This document shows positions 51,411 through 64,000 of a stretch of 64,000 nucleotides of DNA, piece after piece. Origin of the DNA: Eunapius fragilis (lineage: Eukaryota; Porifera; Demospongiae; Spongillida; Spongillidae); the NCBI GenBank assembly GCA_963681505.1, contig OY811971.1, positions 19,478,369 to 19,542,368 of the forward strand, given 5' to 3'. A model generated the notes under the pieces. The model had not been told where the DNA came from. It did no database searches and worked only from the letters and a program-made list of their open reading frames with translations. How positions within the stretch are numbered: the stretch's first letter is position 1; each line of letters opens with the position of its first letter. The position numbers and the translations under genes are program-made.

Positions 51411-52789
51411 ACCTTACGTTTTGAATGACATGTAATAATAGGGCCAGGTGGGTGCGTAGTATAAACAGAGATTATCTTTTGTATAATATAAGTGATGATT
51501 GTTTCACCCACTTATGTGTGTGTGTGTGTGCAAGGGTCCAATTCAAATCATGCGTTTTGGCTGTAGATCTATCTTTAAATATACCCCTTCCTATATGAAA
51601 AATTCCACCGGTGGCGGCTATAAATGCATTTATGCTCTAGCGGTGGAATAAAACAATTGAGCCACGCTATTGTACACCGGCCGCTATTAGAATACGGCAT
51701 TAAATTTTTCACTTATTTACGAGTGCTAGCATTGGGCTATTCCATTATTTAACCGTACACCCCTACAGATGACAATAATTGCAAACGTACCCCCCACTGC
51801 CCCCAGTGCTTTTAACCTGTATCACCCTTTGGTCCGCAATGGAGGTAGGCTGGGGACTAGTATAATGGTACACAACAAAATTGCAGATTCAAAAATAAAT
51901 CTGTCATGACTCGACTTTTTTGCTACCTGGGTCTATATGTTTCAAGAAATAAATACATTACCAAATCAGACAATGTTTCAGCCCTGTGTATGGAAGTAGC
52001 TAGTACCTGTAGCTGCGGAGTTGCAGCCAGTAGAAGTTTCGATTGTTTGATATCGAAGCCGGCGCTGGTACGGAAAATGACGACGGTATCGGCAATAATA
52101 GCGCAATAGAACAATAGTATAGCCTGACTAGCCTCTATTCCTAATGGGCTATTTCATTATTTAATGACAATAAATGGTGTCCAGGGGGGTAGAGGGAATA
52201 TGTCTCGGGGGTTGGACATTTAAATGCCTGTCCCGGGGGGTTAGAAGGCATAATAGAAGCTTGTCCAGGGGGGAGGGGAACAACATAGAAGCTTGTCCAG
52301 GGGAGTGGAACAAACAGAAGCTTGTCCAGGGGGCATTTACAAGATTGTCCCGGGGAGGTGGAGATATAATATAAGCTTGTCCAGGGGTGCTTTTATATAT
52401 TGTCCCGGGGGGTACATTTGCAATTATTGTCATCTGTAGGGGTGTACGGTTAAATAATGGAATAGCCCAATGCTGGCGCTTGTAAATAAGTGAAAAATTT
52501 AATGCCGTATTCTAATAGCGGCCGGTGTACAATAGCGTGGCTCAATTGTTTTATTCCACCGCTAGAGCATAAATACATTTATAGCCGCCACCGGTGGAAT
52601 TTTTCATATAGGAAGGGGTATACTTAAAGATAGATCTACAGCCAAAATTCATGATTTGAATTGGACCCTTGTACACACACACACACACATAAGTGGGTGA
52701 AACAATCAACACTTTATACAAAAGATAATCTCTGTTTATACTACGCACCCACCTGGCCCTATTATTACATGTCATTCAAAACGTAAGGT
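51411..52789. mobile_element. Second foldback element, ~375-bp arms
   Basis: Starts ACCTTACGTTTTGAATG at 51,411 and ends with its complement at 52,789. The left arm (51,411 to about 51,790) and right arm (about 52,408 to 52,789) match in inverted orientation with scattered differences, including a GT/CA run in each. The 620-bp interior has no transposase. No target duplication was clear. Non-autonomous, superfamily unknown; somewhat older than the foldback at 16 kb judging by arm divergence. Confidence 0.8.
52170..52425 (+). repeat. Interspersed TTGTCC-GGGG repeats in foldback interior
   Basis: 'ttgtcc(a/c)gggg(g)' or a close form recurs about nine times at 20-40 bp spacing, often preceded by 'agaagc'. 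Spacers vary in sequence and length. Confidence 0.7.
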
Positions 52790-53068
52790 CACAGCCCTAT
52801 GCGGCCATACAATTTGAGGACAAAAGGCATACCTCTTGAAATATTAAAAAAGTGGCGTAATGCCCTAGCAACCACCCTTGACAACCGACAACCTTAGAAA
52901 CCTTGCACTACATGTTAACATGTTTGAACTTGTCACCATTTTAAAGCCATACAATGAATGACGTATCTTTGTTCTATTTGTAGCCAAAGTCACATTGCCT
53001 AGTTTTCTCTCCACCGCTTCCTACAAGCGGCCATTTTTCGACGAACGCATCGACTTCAACGTACTTTT

Positions 53069-53330
53069 CCCTAGAAGAAATTCTTGCCACGGTTTGTCAA
53101 GAATTACCAAGTCTTACCAAGATTTATCAGGCACGACCTGCCAAGACTTAGCAAGAATCAACCAAGTTTTAGCAAGTCTTATCAAGACTTGACCAGAATT
53201 TGGAACAGAAATTTTAAGACTTAACAAGACCTAGCATGGTTTGCCAAGAATAAAGCAGGTGTGACTTGTCAAGTCTTATCAAGGCCGTCCAAGAATAAAT
53301 AACATTATACTTGTCAATTCTTATTATAGC
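53069..53330 (+). repeat. Left TIR and AAGTCTT subterminal repeats
   Basis: About 15-20 imperfect 10-12 bp units built on CAAGTCTTA/TAAGACTTG, in both orientations, many self-complementary (AAGTCTT next to AAGACTT). Confidence 0.75.
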
Positions 53331-53365
53331 ATGATAATAAAGTACAACTACACACATGTAGAAAG

Positions 53366-55403
53366 TTAACTGTCACATTCTGAGTCACGGCACTTCTGAT
53401 TGGCTTTTGAAACAAATGTTGCCATGTTCCATTCGGTTTGGTTGTACCTCTTGTTCATGATATCTGAAAACCAAAAGATTGTTTTACACAATACATTTTA
53501 TGTGTATTAATTAACTTACCAATTATTCTTGAAACTTTAGTTGGATCAAGCACACCTCTTTCACTCTTCGTACTTTTAAACAGCAGGGAAGAAGACAATT
53601 CTGCTCTAGTAAAAAGCATGTCCAACAATTGCAATCCAAACAAGTATGGAGTTTTAGCTGGCAGATGAAGAATGTTAACTCCATTTACCTATAAGAGTGC
53701 AAGTTTATACCCTTTTTGTATGAAATATAATTATCAACTAACCATGTACATGCTTGTATCTTCTTGTTTTATTGCAGAGCTGCATGGTATGCTATCGTCT
53801 GCTCTTCCTGAATTGGAAAATGCTGATTGTGTTGGGGGCGCTGGACTCAAGGCATGCCCATCCAATAGCTCTTTGAATCTGCTCATCATCTCTATCTGGG
53901 ACTGGCAAATCTCATTCTGTGTGTCACGAATCTGCTGCATGTCAGTCTAAGGCATCATTATGTAACTAGACTTTGCAAACAATTAGTAATGCACTGCACC
54001 TTCATCTCTCTCAACAAAGTTGCTATTTCTTCTTGATTCTGAGTATATATAAGAAAGTTTTGGTCAAATATTACTAACATTGATGCATGCAACACACATG
54101 CAAGACTGCTACTTGTACCCACACATTCCAGCTCTTTACCTTAAGGAATAAAACAAAATAATATAACCATGCGCAGTATGAAATGAACCTGCCTGATTTC
54201 ACAGCTTTAGATAAAATATCCTTTCTGGATGTGTGAGGATCAACTACCGAATCCTTCAAATTGTAAAGACTTATAATAATAGATAGCTATACAAAATAGC
54301 ATGTAGCAGACCTTGGATTCCTCTCTGCTTGATGTTGATTGATGAAGCTTTTGTTCGCATATCATTAAAAAAATACTCAAAAACATTTGCTGCATACCAG
54401 TTTTGCTGATTCGGACTGAGTTTTCTTGAATTTCTATGTCATTTATTGAAATTCTGTTTAGCAGACATACAATACATTGTCACAGTTACCTTGTTTTTTG
54501 TGGAATTTGAGGATTCATCTGTTAAAGCAAGAGAGTGAGCATTTAAGTTATGCAAAAAAATTGTAACCTTTAAAGGATACAAATTGCGCTGGGTACACTT
54601 TTCCATGTGACTCATAAAGAAGTTCTGCCCCTTTTGAGAGATCCATAACAGATTCCGTATCCTCTCTGTACAGGTCTCTGATTTTGGCAACCACTATCTC
54701 ACCAGTTTGAGAACATTTCAGCACAACTGATCCTATTGTACGGATGCTTAATTATAAGTGATTGATCTATATTTATTCTTGCATCAGTGTTACTGATATT
54801 ATAAATCCTAAAACTGTCAAAGTAATACGCTTTTATAGTCTGATTGGCCTTATTGCTAACTTACGCATATGAATGTATCGATCAGCCATGCACATATAAC
54901 CGCGCGTTTCTTTCTCTGCAAGATCAGCCAATTTTATCGGCTTGTGGTTAACACGCTACGTAACACCTCACGACCTAGCTGCATTTTGGCGCCAAAATGC
55001 AAACTTGATGTTTCAAGGTTCTTCCCTAGCACTATACATGTATATACATGCGCTAAAAGGATTCATGCTCGTAGCAGTGACTCAAAACATTCAAGCATCC
55101 CGCGTAGCGATTACAATATTAATTGTTTTATTCCTCGCGGTCACACTAGCTAAAAACCACATACAGGTACCACATAATTAAGCCTAGGTTCGTACGCGCC
55201 GCAGCTCAACTGATCTGCATTACCGTACGTGCTAGAATTGAGTAATTAGCGACATGCTTCTGTGCTAATTGTGTAGACAATGTGCACCTGCGCTTAACTT
55301 ACTGTTCTGGTCCAGTGTAGCTTCTTCCAGTTCTCCTTCGCCGGGATGCTTTCATCGTGGGCTTCCTTTTTCTTTTCCCATTCGCTTCTTGATCAGTAGA
55401 CAT
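53366..55403 (-). CDS. BEN-domain protein, 11 exons
   Basis: Exons that fit one frame: 55,303-55,403; 54,568-54,746; 54,490-54,518; 54,398-54,433; 54,312-54,347; 54,193-54,253; 54,075-54,139; 54,000-54,038; 53,743-53,946; 53,520-53,688; 53,366-53,463. The spliced length is 1,017 nt, 338 residues. Introns are GT-AG except one GC-AG after exon 6, the least certain junction. Residues 1-33 are basic (GKRKRKP, SRRRRTGR), a nuclear signal. Residues 40-93 look like a small Tudor/chromo-type barrel (GEIVVAKIRDLY, YESHGKVYPAQFVSFK). Residues 170-215 are helical (EEIATLLREMK, IRDTQNEICQSQIEMM). Residues 251-338 form a BEN domain (LLDMLFTRAELSSS, RGVLDPTKVSRIIGDI, FVSKANQKCRD). BEN domains bind DNA or partners in chromatin and also occur in viruses and mobile DNA. 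No break was seen. Confidence 0.75.
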
Positions 55404-55500
55404 TGTACTATACAGCTTAATATTGAACACGTGCAGATGATATGGGATATGTTTTCATAAAAAATTATAATCTCTACTATTTGGCACGTGCGGCTGAAAA
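55404..55500. promoter_or_regulatory. Short divergent promoter with two CACGTG boxes
   Basis: Only 97 bp separate the two start codons. CACGTG boxes at 55,428-55,433 and 55,485-55,490 lie 24 and 10 bp from the two starts. The middle is AT-rich (ATAAAAAATTATAAT). A shared bidirectional promoter is inferred from the layout. Confidence 0.5.
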
Positions 55501-55807
55501 ATGGAGAGACCAGAACAATTGCGTAGAGGCTATCGACAGTACTTAAGAGACCCTTTAGTACCAGTGCCTAGAACTACAATGTGGAATCATCAGAAAACAA
55601 AAAGGTATTGGATGGCTCATTGACCTTGTAGCTATAATTAATTTAATAAATTCGATTCATTAATTGTTATCAATTGTCCAACATTCTGCCATTTCCAGAC
55701 TTAATTGTATTTTTCTTGATAAAATAGTTTCAAAAGCAGTCTTAGTTGAAGGCCATGATAATAATTTGTATGCAATCAGACAGCCCAATAAATATGATCA
55801 TAACTAA
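55501..55807 (+). CDS. Small two-exon protein, divergent to the BEN gene
   Basis: Exons 55,501-55,604 and 55,699-55,807 with a 94-nt GT-AG intron (donor AAAAG|GTATTG, acceptor CATTTCCAG) give 70 residues. The start is MERPEQLRRGYRQYLRDP and the end QPNKYDHN. It is Arg-rich at the N terminus with no recognised domain. The first exon is strongly protein-like; the second is plausible and in phase. It could also be the first exons of a longer gene decayed beyond 55,807. Together with the BEN gene it makes up the whole gene content of the element. Function unknown. Confidence 0.45.
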
Positions 55808-55999
55808 AATGTGACTACTTTCTTGTTCATGTATTATACTGCTTTCGTTTCTTATAGTTTGCTTTATATTCTATGGTGTATGTCTGTTGTAAGTGTATGT
55901 GTATATAATCGATTAACAAGTATAAATCTGAGAGGACCAGTGACTCGTAATTAATTACGCTATGACGCGTCAAGGATACTAATGAGATTCATACATGGC

Positions 56000-56132
56000 C
56001 ACAATTGTCTTAGCAAGTCTTGATAAGACTTGATAAGACTTTATAAGTCTTGTCAAGACCTTACAAAATCTTGACACGACTTGCTAAGACTTGGTAAGTC
56101 TTGGCAAACCGTTGCAAGATTTTTTTCTAGGG
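56000..56132 (-). repeat. Right TIR and AAGTCTT subterminal repeats
   Basis: Complementary counterpart of 53,069-53,330; ends CTAGGG at 56,132. Units such as TTGATAAGACTTGATAAGAC repeat in tandem. Confidence 0.75.
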
Positions 56133-56330
56133 TTTGGACCACGTAGACTAATTCTAAATCCCAGGTGGAAGCACAGAACAAAAGGAGACAGAAGGAACTT
56201 ACAACATATAGTATGGAACTGTAGCCATACTTTTTCTTCGCGATGGTATACGCGTGTGAAGTGTACTGTGGCTTGAGCCGTGTAAACTAGCCCAGTACAT
56301 ATACGTGTTGATGTGTAAATCAGCTGGACC
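56133..56330. other. No gene seen
   Basis: Short unique spacer before the minisatellite. Confidence 0.4.
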
Positions 56331-57700
56331 CCCCTGCCCTTATGCACCCACTGTCAGCTGGACACCCAGCCCGTGTACCCACTGTACGTAGCTGCACCCC
56401 TGCCCCATGTACATGTATTGGACCCCCTGCCTTCATGTACCCACTGTAAGCAGCTGGACCCCCGACTGTCCCGCCCCCATGCACCGACTGTTACACTCTG
56501 CCCCCATGCACCCACATTGTAACCCCCTCTCCCCATGTGCCCACTATAAACAGCTGGACCTCCTGCCCCATGTACACACTGTAAGCAGCTGGACGTACCC
56601 CCTACCCCCATGTACCCACTGTAAGCAGCTGGACCCCCTCCCCCACATGTCTACTGTACGCAGTTGGACCCACAGCCTTCATGTAAGCAGCTGGACCCTG
56701 TGCCCCCATACATCCACTGCTACCCCCTGCTCTCATGTAACCACTGTGAGCAGCTGGATCCCCTGCCCACATGTACCCACTATAAGCAGCTGGACCCCCC
56801 TCCCCCATGTACCCGCTGTAAGCAATTGCCCTATTGCCCCCATGTACCCACTGTAAGCAACTGGCCCCCCTGCCCCCATGCACCCACTGTAAGCAACTGC
56901 CCCCTTGCCCCCATGTACCCACTGTAAGCAGCTAGACCCCCTTGCCCCATGTACCCACTGTAAGCAACTGCCCCAGCCCCTTGCCCCCATGTACCCCTGT
57001 AAGCAACTGGCCCCCTTGCCCCCATGTACCCAATGTAAGCAACTGACCCCCTTACCCCCATGTACTCACTGTACGCAACTGGCCCCCTTGCCCCCATGTA
57101 CCCACCGTAAGCAGCTAGACCCCCTTGCCCCCATGCACCCCTGTAAACAACTGGCTCCCTTGCCCCTATGTACCAAATGTAAGCAACTGCCCCCTTGCCC
57201 CCATGTACCCAATGTAAGCAACTGCCCCCATGTACACACTGTAAGCAACTGGCCCCTTTGCCCCCATGTACCCACTGTAAGAAACTGGCCCCCCTGCCCC
57301 CATGCACCCACTGTAAGAAACTGGCCCCCTTGCCCCCATGTACCCACTGTAAGCAGCTAGACCCCCTTGCCCCCATGTACCCACTGTAAGCAGCTAGACC
57401 CCTGCCCCCAAGTATCCACTATAAGCAAATGGCCCCCTTGCCCCCATATACCCACAGTAAGCAGCTAGACCCCCTGCCCTTAAGTATCCACTATAAGCAA
57501 ATGGCCCCCTTGCCCCCATGTACCCACTGTAAGCAGCTAGACCCCTGTCCTTGTGTACTCACTGTACTCTCTTACTCTATGTACTCACTGTAAGTAGCAG
57601 GACCTCCTGCACATGCCCCAAAGTGCCTACTATAAGCAGCTGGACCCCCTGCCCTATGTTCCCACAGTAAGCAGCTGGACCCCCTGCCCTCATGTATCCG
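56331..57700 (+). repeat. ~36-bp minisatellite, about 35-38 copies
   Basis: Unit approximately CCCCCATGTACCCACTG then TAAGCA(A/G)CTGGACCCCCTTG, varying from about 21 to 50 bp. Best conserved at 56,820-57,560. Because the core period is often a multiple of three and lacks stops, open frames of 70-180 codons appear on both strands (Cys/Pro/His-rich on plus, Gly/Tyr/Trp-rich on minus). There is no sign that these are genes. Confidence 0.9.
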
Positions 57701-62146: not shown

Positions 62147-62149
62147 CCC

Positions 62150-63020
62150 TAGCAAAAAATCCTGTAAGATTTTATAAGAATTATAATGAGTTAAGAATAT
62201 GCAAGAAATTGGGACCAAGATCTTATTAGGAATCCCATAAGATCTGATAAGAATCTTATAAGTTTCTTACAAGAACCTTGAAAGTATCTTAAAGGAACTT
62301 GTAAAATTCTTACAGGATTCTTACAAGATCCTATTACTAATTCCTACAGGATTCTTATAAGATTCAAGAAATTGGGACCAAGATCTTATTAGGAATCCCA
62401 TAAGATCTGATAAGAATCTTATAAGTTTCTTACAAGAATCTTGAAAGTATCTTAAAGGAACGTGTAAAATTCTTACAGGATTATTACAAGATCCTATTAC
62501 TAATTCCTACAGGATTCTTATAAGATTCATAAAATAGGGACCAAGATCTTATTAGGAATCCTGTAGGATCTGATAAGAATCTTATACGTTTCCTACAAGA
62601 ATCTTGAAGGTATTTTAAAGGAACTTGTATGATTCTTATACAGGATTCTTACAAGATCCTATTACTTATTCCTACCGGAATCTTATAAGATTTAAGAAAT
62701 TGGGACCAAGATCTTATTAGGAATCCTGTAGGATCTAATAAGAATCTTATAAGTTTCTTACAAGAATCTTGAAGGTATCTTAAAGGAACTTGTATGATTC
62801 TTACAGGATTCTTTCAAGATCCTATTACTAAATACTATAGGAATCTTACAAGATGCAAGAAATTGGGATCAAGATCTCATTAGGAATCCTGTAGGATCCG
62901 ACAGGAACTTATATAAAGAATCTAACACGGTCCTTGAACAATTCTTATAGGCTCATCCATGAAATAAGTTCCTAGTTCGTTAATTGTATTTCATTTCCTG
63001 GAATGCAAGAAAATTGGGGA
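62150..63020 (+). repeat. ~165-bp subterminal tandem array, five to six units
   Basis: 'aagaaattgggaccaagatc' or a variant recurs at about 62,204, 62,367, 62,531, 62,695, 62,855 and 63,009, spacings of 154-164 bp. Each unit is dense in short AAGAATCTTATAAGATTC-like inverted words, so it is a repeat of repeats. Confidence 0.85.
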
Positions 63021-63472
63021 CTAGGATACGTAAAGGAATCCCTTATGATCTATAAGATTCATTGAACATATTCTTAAAAGATACATTAAAGCTCTCTTGT
63101 ACGAGATTCATATATATAAATGTACTAACCAAAAATCACAAATACAAAAATACATTCCTTTCAATGTTACATATAGTTCACTTTGAGTTTCCTCTCACTT
63201 TTTTAAAATGTCCAGGCATTTTTGGTTGCAGCTAGTTATTATGTCATTTCCTTTGCAAATCATATTCCCACTCTAAAAATGACAAAAATTAAAAAGCTTT
63301 ATTACACCACAAAGATGATGCACAAAATATATATTTAATTATATACACATTCTTTTTGTTAACCCCTTCTTGTGCTTATCCCTCAAGCTATCCTTCATTT
63401 CCCATTGTATCTTAAATCCTTTTACTGTCCCAATGTATCCCTTAAATTGTAGTGCACTCGTTACATACTTAC
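63021..63472. other. 3' region of BEN-type gene and AT-rich spacer
   Basis: Holds a possible last exon on the minus strand (IQWEMKDSLRDKHKKG) that does not join in phase; otherwise AT-rich. Confidence 0.3.
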
Positions 63473-63965
63473 CTTCAATAAGAGCTACTCGTTTAGGAGA
63501 AAGGTTTAGCTTTTCACATTTTTTTAATACAACGATTTTGACATCTCCTCATCCGTAAACAATGACTGCATAAGTCGCCTAGCATATTTGCTAGGCTCAG
63601 TGGCTGGAATGGCCAGCAGATTCACACCATTCTTCTGTAAGATGTTAAAAATAAATCAACCCATGTGTATAACTTATGTACACTTACAGTTGTGAAATGC
63701 TTGACATCCTCAACATTAGTGATTACCCGAGGAGCATGTGCAGGGATGGTAGACTAAACATACAAAGTAGAAAATGTAACCACTAATTAATTTTTTATTT
63801 CCATTACCTTTGTATCACTAGCTGATAGCCACATCTGCTTCAGCTCCAGAAGAGTGGTATTGATGGATTTCTGAAAATGACTGTTTCAAATACATCCTCT
63901 AATCTTGTACATAAATTTACCAAGTAGAACAAACAATCTCCGGCCGGCTCAAGAGAACATGTATC
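63473..63965 (-). pseudogene. BEN-type gene, partial, with apparent frameshift
   Basis: Phase-0 exons with GT-AG borders: 63,921-63,965 (LEPAGDCLFYL), 63,808-63,870 (NTTLLELKQMWLSASD), 63,688-63,753 (PRVITNVEDVKHFTT) and 63,473-63,634. The last begins NGVNLLAIPATEPSK and LMQSLFTDEEM, matching NGVNILHLPAKTPY and LLDMLFTRAEL of the first BEN gene. It then needs a 1-nt shift before an A run near 63,520 to continue as KLNLSPKRVALIEG (cf. RGVLDPTKVSRIIG). The final exon could not be placed: the best candidate (63,318-63,440) is out of phase. The 5' part lies beyond the window. It is either decayed or the A run is miscounted. Confidence 0.5.
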
Positions 63966-64000
63966 CTTATTATTTCATTTATGGGGAGAAGAGGAAAGAG

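Follow-up and report, generated by a model that had tools for sequence, protein, structure and literature searches.

The stretch analysed here, hereafter the window, comprises 64,000 nucleotides of the freshwater sponge Eunapius fragilis (contig OY811971.1; G000:C1:19478369-19542368), and contains at 53069-56132 an element with inverted ends, a gene for a BEN-domain protein and a small divergent reading frame. This element is a non-autonomous EnSpm/CMC-type DNA transposon, a copy shortened by internal deletion: both ends are kept, the transposase is gone with the deleted part and longer relatives exist. The stretch recurs many times in the genome searched (24 contigs, 218.9 Mb; the best 40 of 47 candidates of the element search were scored), and the termini CCCTAG and CTAGGG, which an earlier note on this DNA had recognised, stand exactly at 53069 and 56132, the same six bases being found at both ends of 10 further retrieved copies. 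Together these form a set of 11 copies with both ends present (the window copy and L009-L018; diverged and partial copies were excluded, among them those at C10, C15, C20, C1:14.2 and C1:14.5 Mb), all of which begin with CCCTAGAA and finish with CTAGGG; in L014, 37/40 terminal bases match between the two ends. An exact 2-bp target duplication flanks nine of the 11 (TT, GC, GC, TG, TA, CG, GG, AC, TA) and is absent from the flanks of L015 and L018, while a third duplicated base occurs in the window copy only, so that the 3-bp TTT duplication proposed in the earlier note is ruled out for this family. Empty sites were recovered for both insertions searched, and the joined flanks of L011 have 13 uninterrupted matches elsewhere in the genome, twelve of them at 93-100%. 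The element, which had already been suspected to be mobile, is real and mobile, in that it is multi-copy, its ends recur together and its empty sites are present. Seven of the 11 copies are of the deleted type (2.7-3.06 kb) and four retain transposase sequence (L013 and L014, of 5.72 kb, and L015 and L018, of 4.7 kb); identity between copy pairs is 97-99.8% across shared columns, which suggests that the spread of the family is recent.

The window copy lacks 2.66 kb of the long copies, with TTA common to both sides of the deletion junction. In near-identical 5.7-kb relatives it is this segment that carries the transposase (Pfam Transposase_21), encoding a 616-aa open frame of the Tnp2 type (L014 4548-6398), and the frame of L013 scores 63.6 bits against PF02992 (cut-off 28.6). 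The absence of a transposase, as first described, thus holds for the deleted copies and not for L013, L014 and L018, which carry one, and the idea of a transposase supplied from elsewhere is supported. The deleted copies are derivatives that multiplied once their transposase was gone. In 14/14 transposase relatives D55, D142, C161, C164, H368 and E392 are invariant, and H372 nearly so, which gives the CMC motif, a DDE whose second D and E enclose C(2)C and H(3-4)H; D228 was rejected as second catalytic D, since the positions of C(2)C and H(3)H point to D142. The small frame starts from an ATG at 55501, 97 bp from the BEN ATG at 55403 and divergent from it, and runs for 70 codons to a stop. It is a relic of the same gene: it equals, exactly, transposase exon 1 (55501-55604) plus the final 35 codons (55699-55807). 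The frame and its spacing had been described correctly; an independent 70-residue gene is ruled out, all its codons deriving from transposase exon 1 and C-terminus, and with it goes the proposed novel unit of BEN plus a small protein, the real unit being BEN plus a full transposase. Exon 1, MERPEQLRRGYRQYLRDP..., is also the start of the E. muelleri gene models P0099 and P0104, which, with P0085, are among the E. muelleri-named transposase proteins showing 94-98% identity over 41-43% of the query, which would suit a freshwater-sponge host belonging or close to that species. The transposase had no match at E≤1 in a PDB sequence search, and alignment scans of genome and viral contigs gave 29 pattern matches each, none of them a confirmed relative; the case for a spread to other species is therefore one of protein matches, namely E. 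muelleri-named ones and, lacking context, the short BEN proteins P0126-P0130 from metagenomes.

The second gene would encode a basic N-terminus, a conserved stretch of ~55 aa, a coiled-coil-like region and a C-terminal BEN domain. To judge by profile scores and a predicted model, it is a genuine BEN gene, in agreement with the earlier assignment: the BEN exons alone exceed the PF10523 cut-off of 23.2 bits in four lineages (L014 24.5, L031 24.3, L032 23.5, L033 26.3), and the predicted model of a relative matches BEN-DNA structures in Foldseek. Against PDB sequences the BEN exons alone returned nothing meaningful, and the alignment query returned weak BANP matches (E 0.16-0.23). The 11 exons said to fit 338 codons exactly are set aside as evidence, since a free exon-chain search yields an alternative open 11-exon chain of 332 codons; a 338-codon product of the window copy is moreover doubtful because its exon 1 carries a frame shift, a +4-nt insertion present in 6/6 deleted copies retaining that exon, relative to four longer copies. 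The nine other placeable BEN exons are open in the window copy. dN is lower than dS in five of six usable BEN exon comparisons, a count that excludes the 187-residue L032-L034 frame (1-bp gap) and three more pairs without finite dS. A further protein, P0122 (eukprot Em0011g523a), has transposon-type BEN exons E1, E2 and an apparent part of E9 fused to a DEAD-box helicase, which would make it a chimeric gene model or else an insertion that has become exonic.

Features of the element at 53069-56132 (window positions; E, BEN exon).
Feature	Position	Strand	Basis
2-bp target site duplication, left (TT)	53067..53068		exact 2 bp in 9/11 copies
Internally deleted EnSpm/CMC-type transposon, 3064 bp	53069..56132		copy comparison
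Left terminal inverted repeat, CCCTAG...	53069..53108	+	37/40 match in L014
Left subterminal repeats AAG(A/T)CTT, many 10 bp apart	53079..53322		repeat scan
BEN E11, last exon, second part of BEN domain, stop	53366..53463	-	same splicing in E. muelleri P0124/P0125
BEN E10, first part of BEN domain	53520..53688	-	L014 counterpart
BEN E9, coiled-coil-like region and linker	53743..53946	-	judged by eye
BEN E8 (NQEEIATLLREMK)	54000..54038	-	E6-to-E8 junction ambiguous
BEN E6	54191..54253	-	3' limit uncertain
BEN E5	54312..54347	-	open in the window copy
BEN E4	54398..54433	-	open in the window copy
BEN E3	54490..54518	-	open in the window copy
BEN E2, ~55-aa conserved stretch (VVLKCSQTGEIVV...)	54568..54732	-	also in L021, L032, P0122
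BEN E1, KRKRKP basic motif, +4-nt frame shift vs longer copies	55303..55403	-	copy comparison
97-bp divergent intergenic stretch, candidate bidirectional promoter	55404..55500		promoter function inferred
Transposase exon 1 (MERPEQLRR...)	55501..55604	+	same N-terminus in E. muelleri P0099, P0104
Junction of 2.66-kb internal deletion, TTA on both sides	55667..55669		long-copy comparison
Transposase last 35 codons and stop	55699..55807	+	long-copy comparison
Right subterminal repeats, 10-11-bp steps (one of 20), period 10.15 bp	56015..56122		0/2000 random placements as coherent
Right terminal inverted repeat, ...CTAGGG	56093..56132	-	shared ends across copies
2-bp target site duplication, right (TT)	56133..56134		flank comparison

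The divergent pairing of BEN and transposase extends across the clade, well beyond the family of the window copy. It was assessed with the best 90 of 531 candidates of the transposase search, the best 127 of 191 for the window BEN query, and the best 150 of 195 and 150 of 168 for BEN queries from two further lineages. With the window query, 14 of the 37 listed BEN loci outside the window family have a transposase within 10 kb, in divergent orientation in all 14 cases, where 0.27 would be expected. For the wider count, BEN matches at E≤0.001 were used, those of one locus being merged and the third-lineage query contributing two; the window's own family was excluded, as were weaker matches, including C4:6911319 (E 0.0019), which adjoins the C4:6.91-Mb transposase. 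Among the matches listed, a BEN lies within 12 kb at 47/64 transposase loci of 38-81% identity, mostly at a distance of 2.4-6.2 kb, and 45 of these are divergent, against a mean of 1.0 under random placement (assuming 8 Mb for contigs without known length). L038, from a lineage at 40% identity that had no BEN in the search with the window query, shows on direct reading a BEN divergent from its transposase. No BEN was listed within 12 kb of the single 35% transposase locus, nor at any of 12 loci in the clade at 28-34% identity. This clade serves as an internal control, with the caveat that a BEN there could be too diverged for the queries.

BEN sequences also occur outside such pairs. At 74 of the 120 listed BEN loci no listed transposase is nearby, and these could be host genes, copies in decay, or loci next to a transposase that was not scored; the BEN loci L029 and L030 were placed in no element. 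At C20:4700104-4832934 six same-strand BEN loci lie within 133 kb with no listed transposase within 12 kb, possibly a host gene cluster or a domestication. L036 (C21) and L037 (C17) belong to a short repeated group sharing the right-end repeats, both with a decayed, stop-containing BEN and no transposase match; further right-end matches of this group lie at C16:2905359, C5:497704, C3:5874642 and C1:13638341. The window itself also contains, at 62147-64000 and continuing past its edge, a second element (L044), which belongs to a different lineage and has the end CCCTAGCAAAAAATCC; AAGATCTTATAAGAATC-type repeats take up ~900 bp of it, and at 63509-63631 (minus strand) lies the relic of a BEN exon containing a stop. 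Neither a transposase nor a right end was found in a 9.9-kb stretch reaching past the window.

The ends of these elements carry palindromic repeats that are specific to each lineage. In the window copy, CAAGACTTG (≤1 mismatch) occurs 11 times in the terminal 410 bp, where 0.15 are expected, and not once in the inner 2,564 bp, so the subterminal repeats noticed earlier on both sides are there; their spacing is 10.15 bp at the right end (0/2000 random placements as coherent) and 10.75 bp at the left (12/2000). In L014 the repeat CAAG(A/T)CTTG (≤1 mismatch), palindromic around its central base, has seven occurrences on the left, five on the right and one inside. The longer two-ended relatives measure 5.7-8.0 kb, with CCC...GGG termini and target duplications of 2 or 3 bp, the ends of the two further lineages being set by comparing two copies each: L032/L034 (6.2-6.9 kb) has CCCAAGG... 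ends and TA and TT duplications, and L033/L035 (7.95 kb) CCCAGTG... ends and AAC and GAG duplications. The L032 repeat TCATGCATGA (≤2 mismatches; nine left, seven right, nine inner) is spaced at 10.95 and 10.6 bp (9/1000 and 0/1000 random placements as coherent), and the L033 repeat TCTTGGCCAAGA (≤2 mismatches) occurs twice on the left, too few sites for spacing, five times on the right and never inside. The other repeats near the window copy are imperfect and G-rich on its left side (52180-52430, TGTCCAGGGGGG) and, near its right end, a long C-rich minisatellite (56320-57500 and beyond, units like CCCCCATGTACCCACTGTAAGCA).

We consider it probable that the BEN protein is the animal counterpart of TNPA, the partner protein of maize En/Spm, standing beside the transposase in a two-gene EnSpm/CMC element of which the window copy is a deletion derivative. 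An action of the protein on the subterminal repeats, which the earlier note had suggested, is plausible: as a dimer or array it would occupy the palindromes of either end, and in two of the three lineages neighbouring molecules would line up along the same face of the helix. It would thereby join the element ends for the transposase, as TNPA does, and perhaps also control the shared promoter. As the transposase is gone and BEN exon 1 is shifted, the window copy would move only if longer copies supplied both proteins, like the deletion derivatives of Spm. Several observations weigh against this reading. Whole BEN concatenations fall just below the PF10523 cut-off (22.1 and 21.8 vs 23.2 bits), P0125 slightly under it (23.0), the best Foldseek E is 0.0076 for a model with a mean pLDDT of 64, the E6-to-E8 junction is ambiguous, and exon E2 of L032-L034 shows one replacement change and zero synonymous ones. 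Among the matches listed, 17/64 transposase loci have no BEN within 12 kb, and L018 (C1:17.36 Mb) retains the transposase without placed BEN exons E2-E9. As to the ends, outside the window family the terminal 40 bases, compared ungapped, match at only 20/40 (L032) and 16/40 (L033); the L032 end repeats are only moderately above shuffled ends (16 vs a mean of 3.4 and a maximum of 8), the L033 right end has no helical period (413/1000 random placements as coherent), and the divergence of the repeats follows the transposase as well as BEN, so that alone it does not name the binder.

Could BEN instead be a regulator or anti-silencing factor, binding the repeats and the shared promoter and controlling chromatin or expression outside the cut-and-paste complex? 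Divergent genes whose start codons are only 97 bp apart would suit such a role, and the Drosophila BEN-solo factors repress and insulate; however, the repeats are located at both ends and not mid-element near the shared promoter, and a helical spacing that reaches close to the terminal repeats is in keeping with a complex at the ends, which makes this alternative unlikely, if the strongest of the rivals. It is less likely still that the element carries along a BEN gene captured from the host, a gene that plays no part in the life cycle of the element. BEN proteins are host chromatin factors, and the 74 lone BEN loci would fit; nevertheless, the divergent arrangement at 45/64 transposase loci is kept down to 38% transposase identity, dN is lower than dS in most usable exon comparisons, and the absence of BEN from the listed 28-34% clade loci would fit one old, retained acquisition. 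A host BEN gene flanked by chance by short inverted repeats is next to impossible: after the genome search nothing speaks for it, 11 copies have both ends at precise positions, and the empty sites refute it.

If BEN is the TNPA-like partner, an animal element would have as its partner a fold with many solved DNA complexes, and several lineages of one genome would each combine a different BEN with a different palindrome, which opens the co-evolution of end repeats and binder to direct testing by simple binding assays. It also raises a question: is there an exchange between host BEN factors and transposon BEN proteins? A bolder version, which we hold only tentatively and would not bet on, is that in this animal EnSpm/CMC lineage BEN is an obligate end-binding partner kept through deep divergence, acting as a helically phased array whose palindromes change in each lineage together with BEN. 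Were it true, transposon BEN proteins could be the source of some animal BEN chromatin factors, and the row at C20:4.70-4.83 Mb would be a candidate domestication.

Regarding classification, the elements are filed by their transposase sequence as EnSpm/CMC, and not by their ends as CACTA, because their termini (CCCTAG, CCCAAGG, CCCAGTG) begin with CCC and not with the 5'-CAC(TA) of the narrow sense. The earlier CACTA-type label survives as a CACTA-like mobile element, with the CACTA/En-Spm organisation of subterminal repeats at both ends, and fails as regards the termini. The target duplications (2 bp in the window family and in L032 and L034, 3 bp in L033 and L035) fit the 2-5 bp of EnSpm/CMC. 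CMC elements are defined by D...D...E, the second D and the E enclosing C(2)C and H(3)H, and by 2-5-bp duplications (PMC12730594). The sponge elements resemble these CMC/CMCT elements in transposase motif and duplication size; unlike them, they have CCC..GGG ends instead of the usual CA..TG, and a BEN gene but no TET/JBP gene (PMC12730594). A BEN gene in a CACTA/EnSpm element was not found in the literature titles and abstract openings listed (few subscription journals; Repbase outside the scope).

The closest parallel is maize En/Spm. Its two proteins, TNPA and TNPD, are alternative splice products of a single transcription unit, whereas in the sponge elements the second protein, BEN, has a divergent gene to itself. 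The sponge termini are also CCC and not CAC, and the repeats form palindromes, with helical spacing in two lineages. Shared with En/Spm are a Tnp2-type transposase with a second element-encoded protein, terminal plus subterminal repeats, and internal-deletion derivatives that retain both ends and, in Spm, rely on proteins from longer copies in trans (PMC2613891); the same account describes the partner proteins of plant CACTA elements as diverse and of little mutual similarity. Unlike the BEN chromatin factors Insv, Bsg25A (Elba), BANP, NACC1, BEND3 and BEND6, the sponge BEN is encoded inside a transposon, has an extra N-terminal stretch of ~55 aa and scores marginally in Pfam. BEN domains bind palindromes, according to structural and biochemical work; the L032 lineage has CATGCATG repeats that resemble the CATG preference of NACC1, which is a resemblance only, and repression and insulation are described for the Drosophila BEN-solo factors (PMC6911014). 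BEN-domain genes tied to mobile or viral DNA are likewise a feature of bracoviruses. The bracovirus genes transferred to Lepidoptera include BEN genes. Such passage of bracovirus genes to Lepidoptera is described (PMC4574769, PMC5704228), with DNA circles there, in contrast to a transposon with a transposase partner here.
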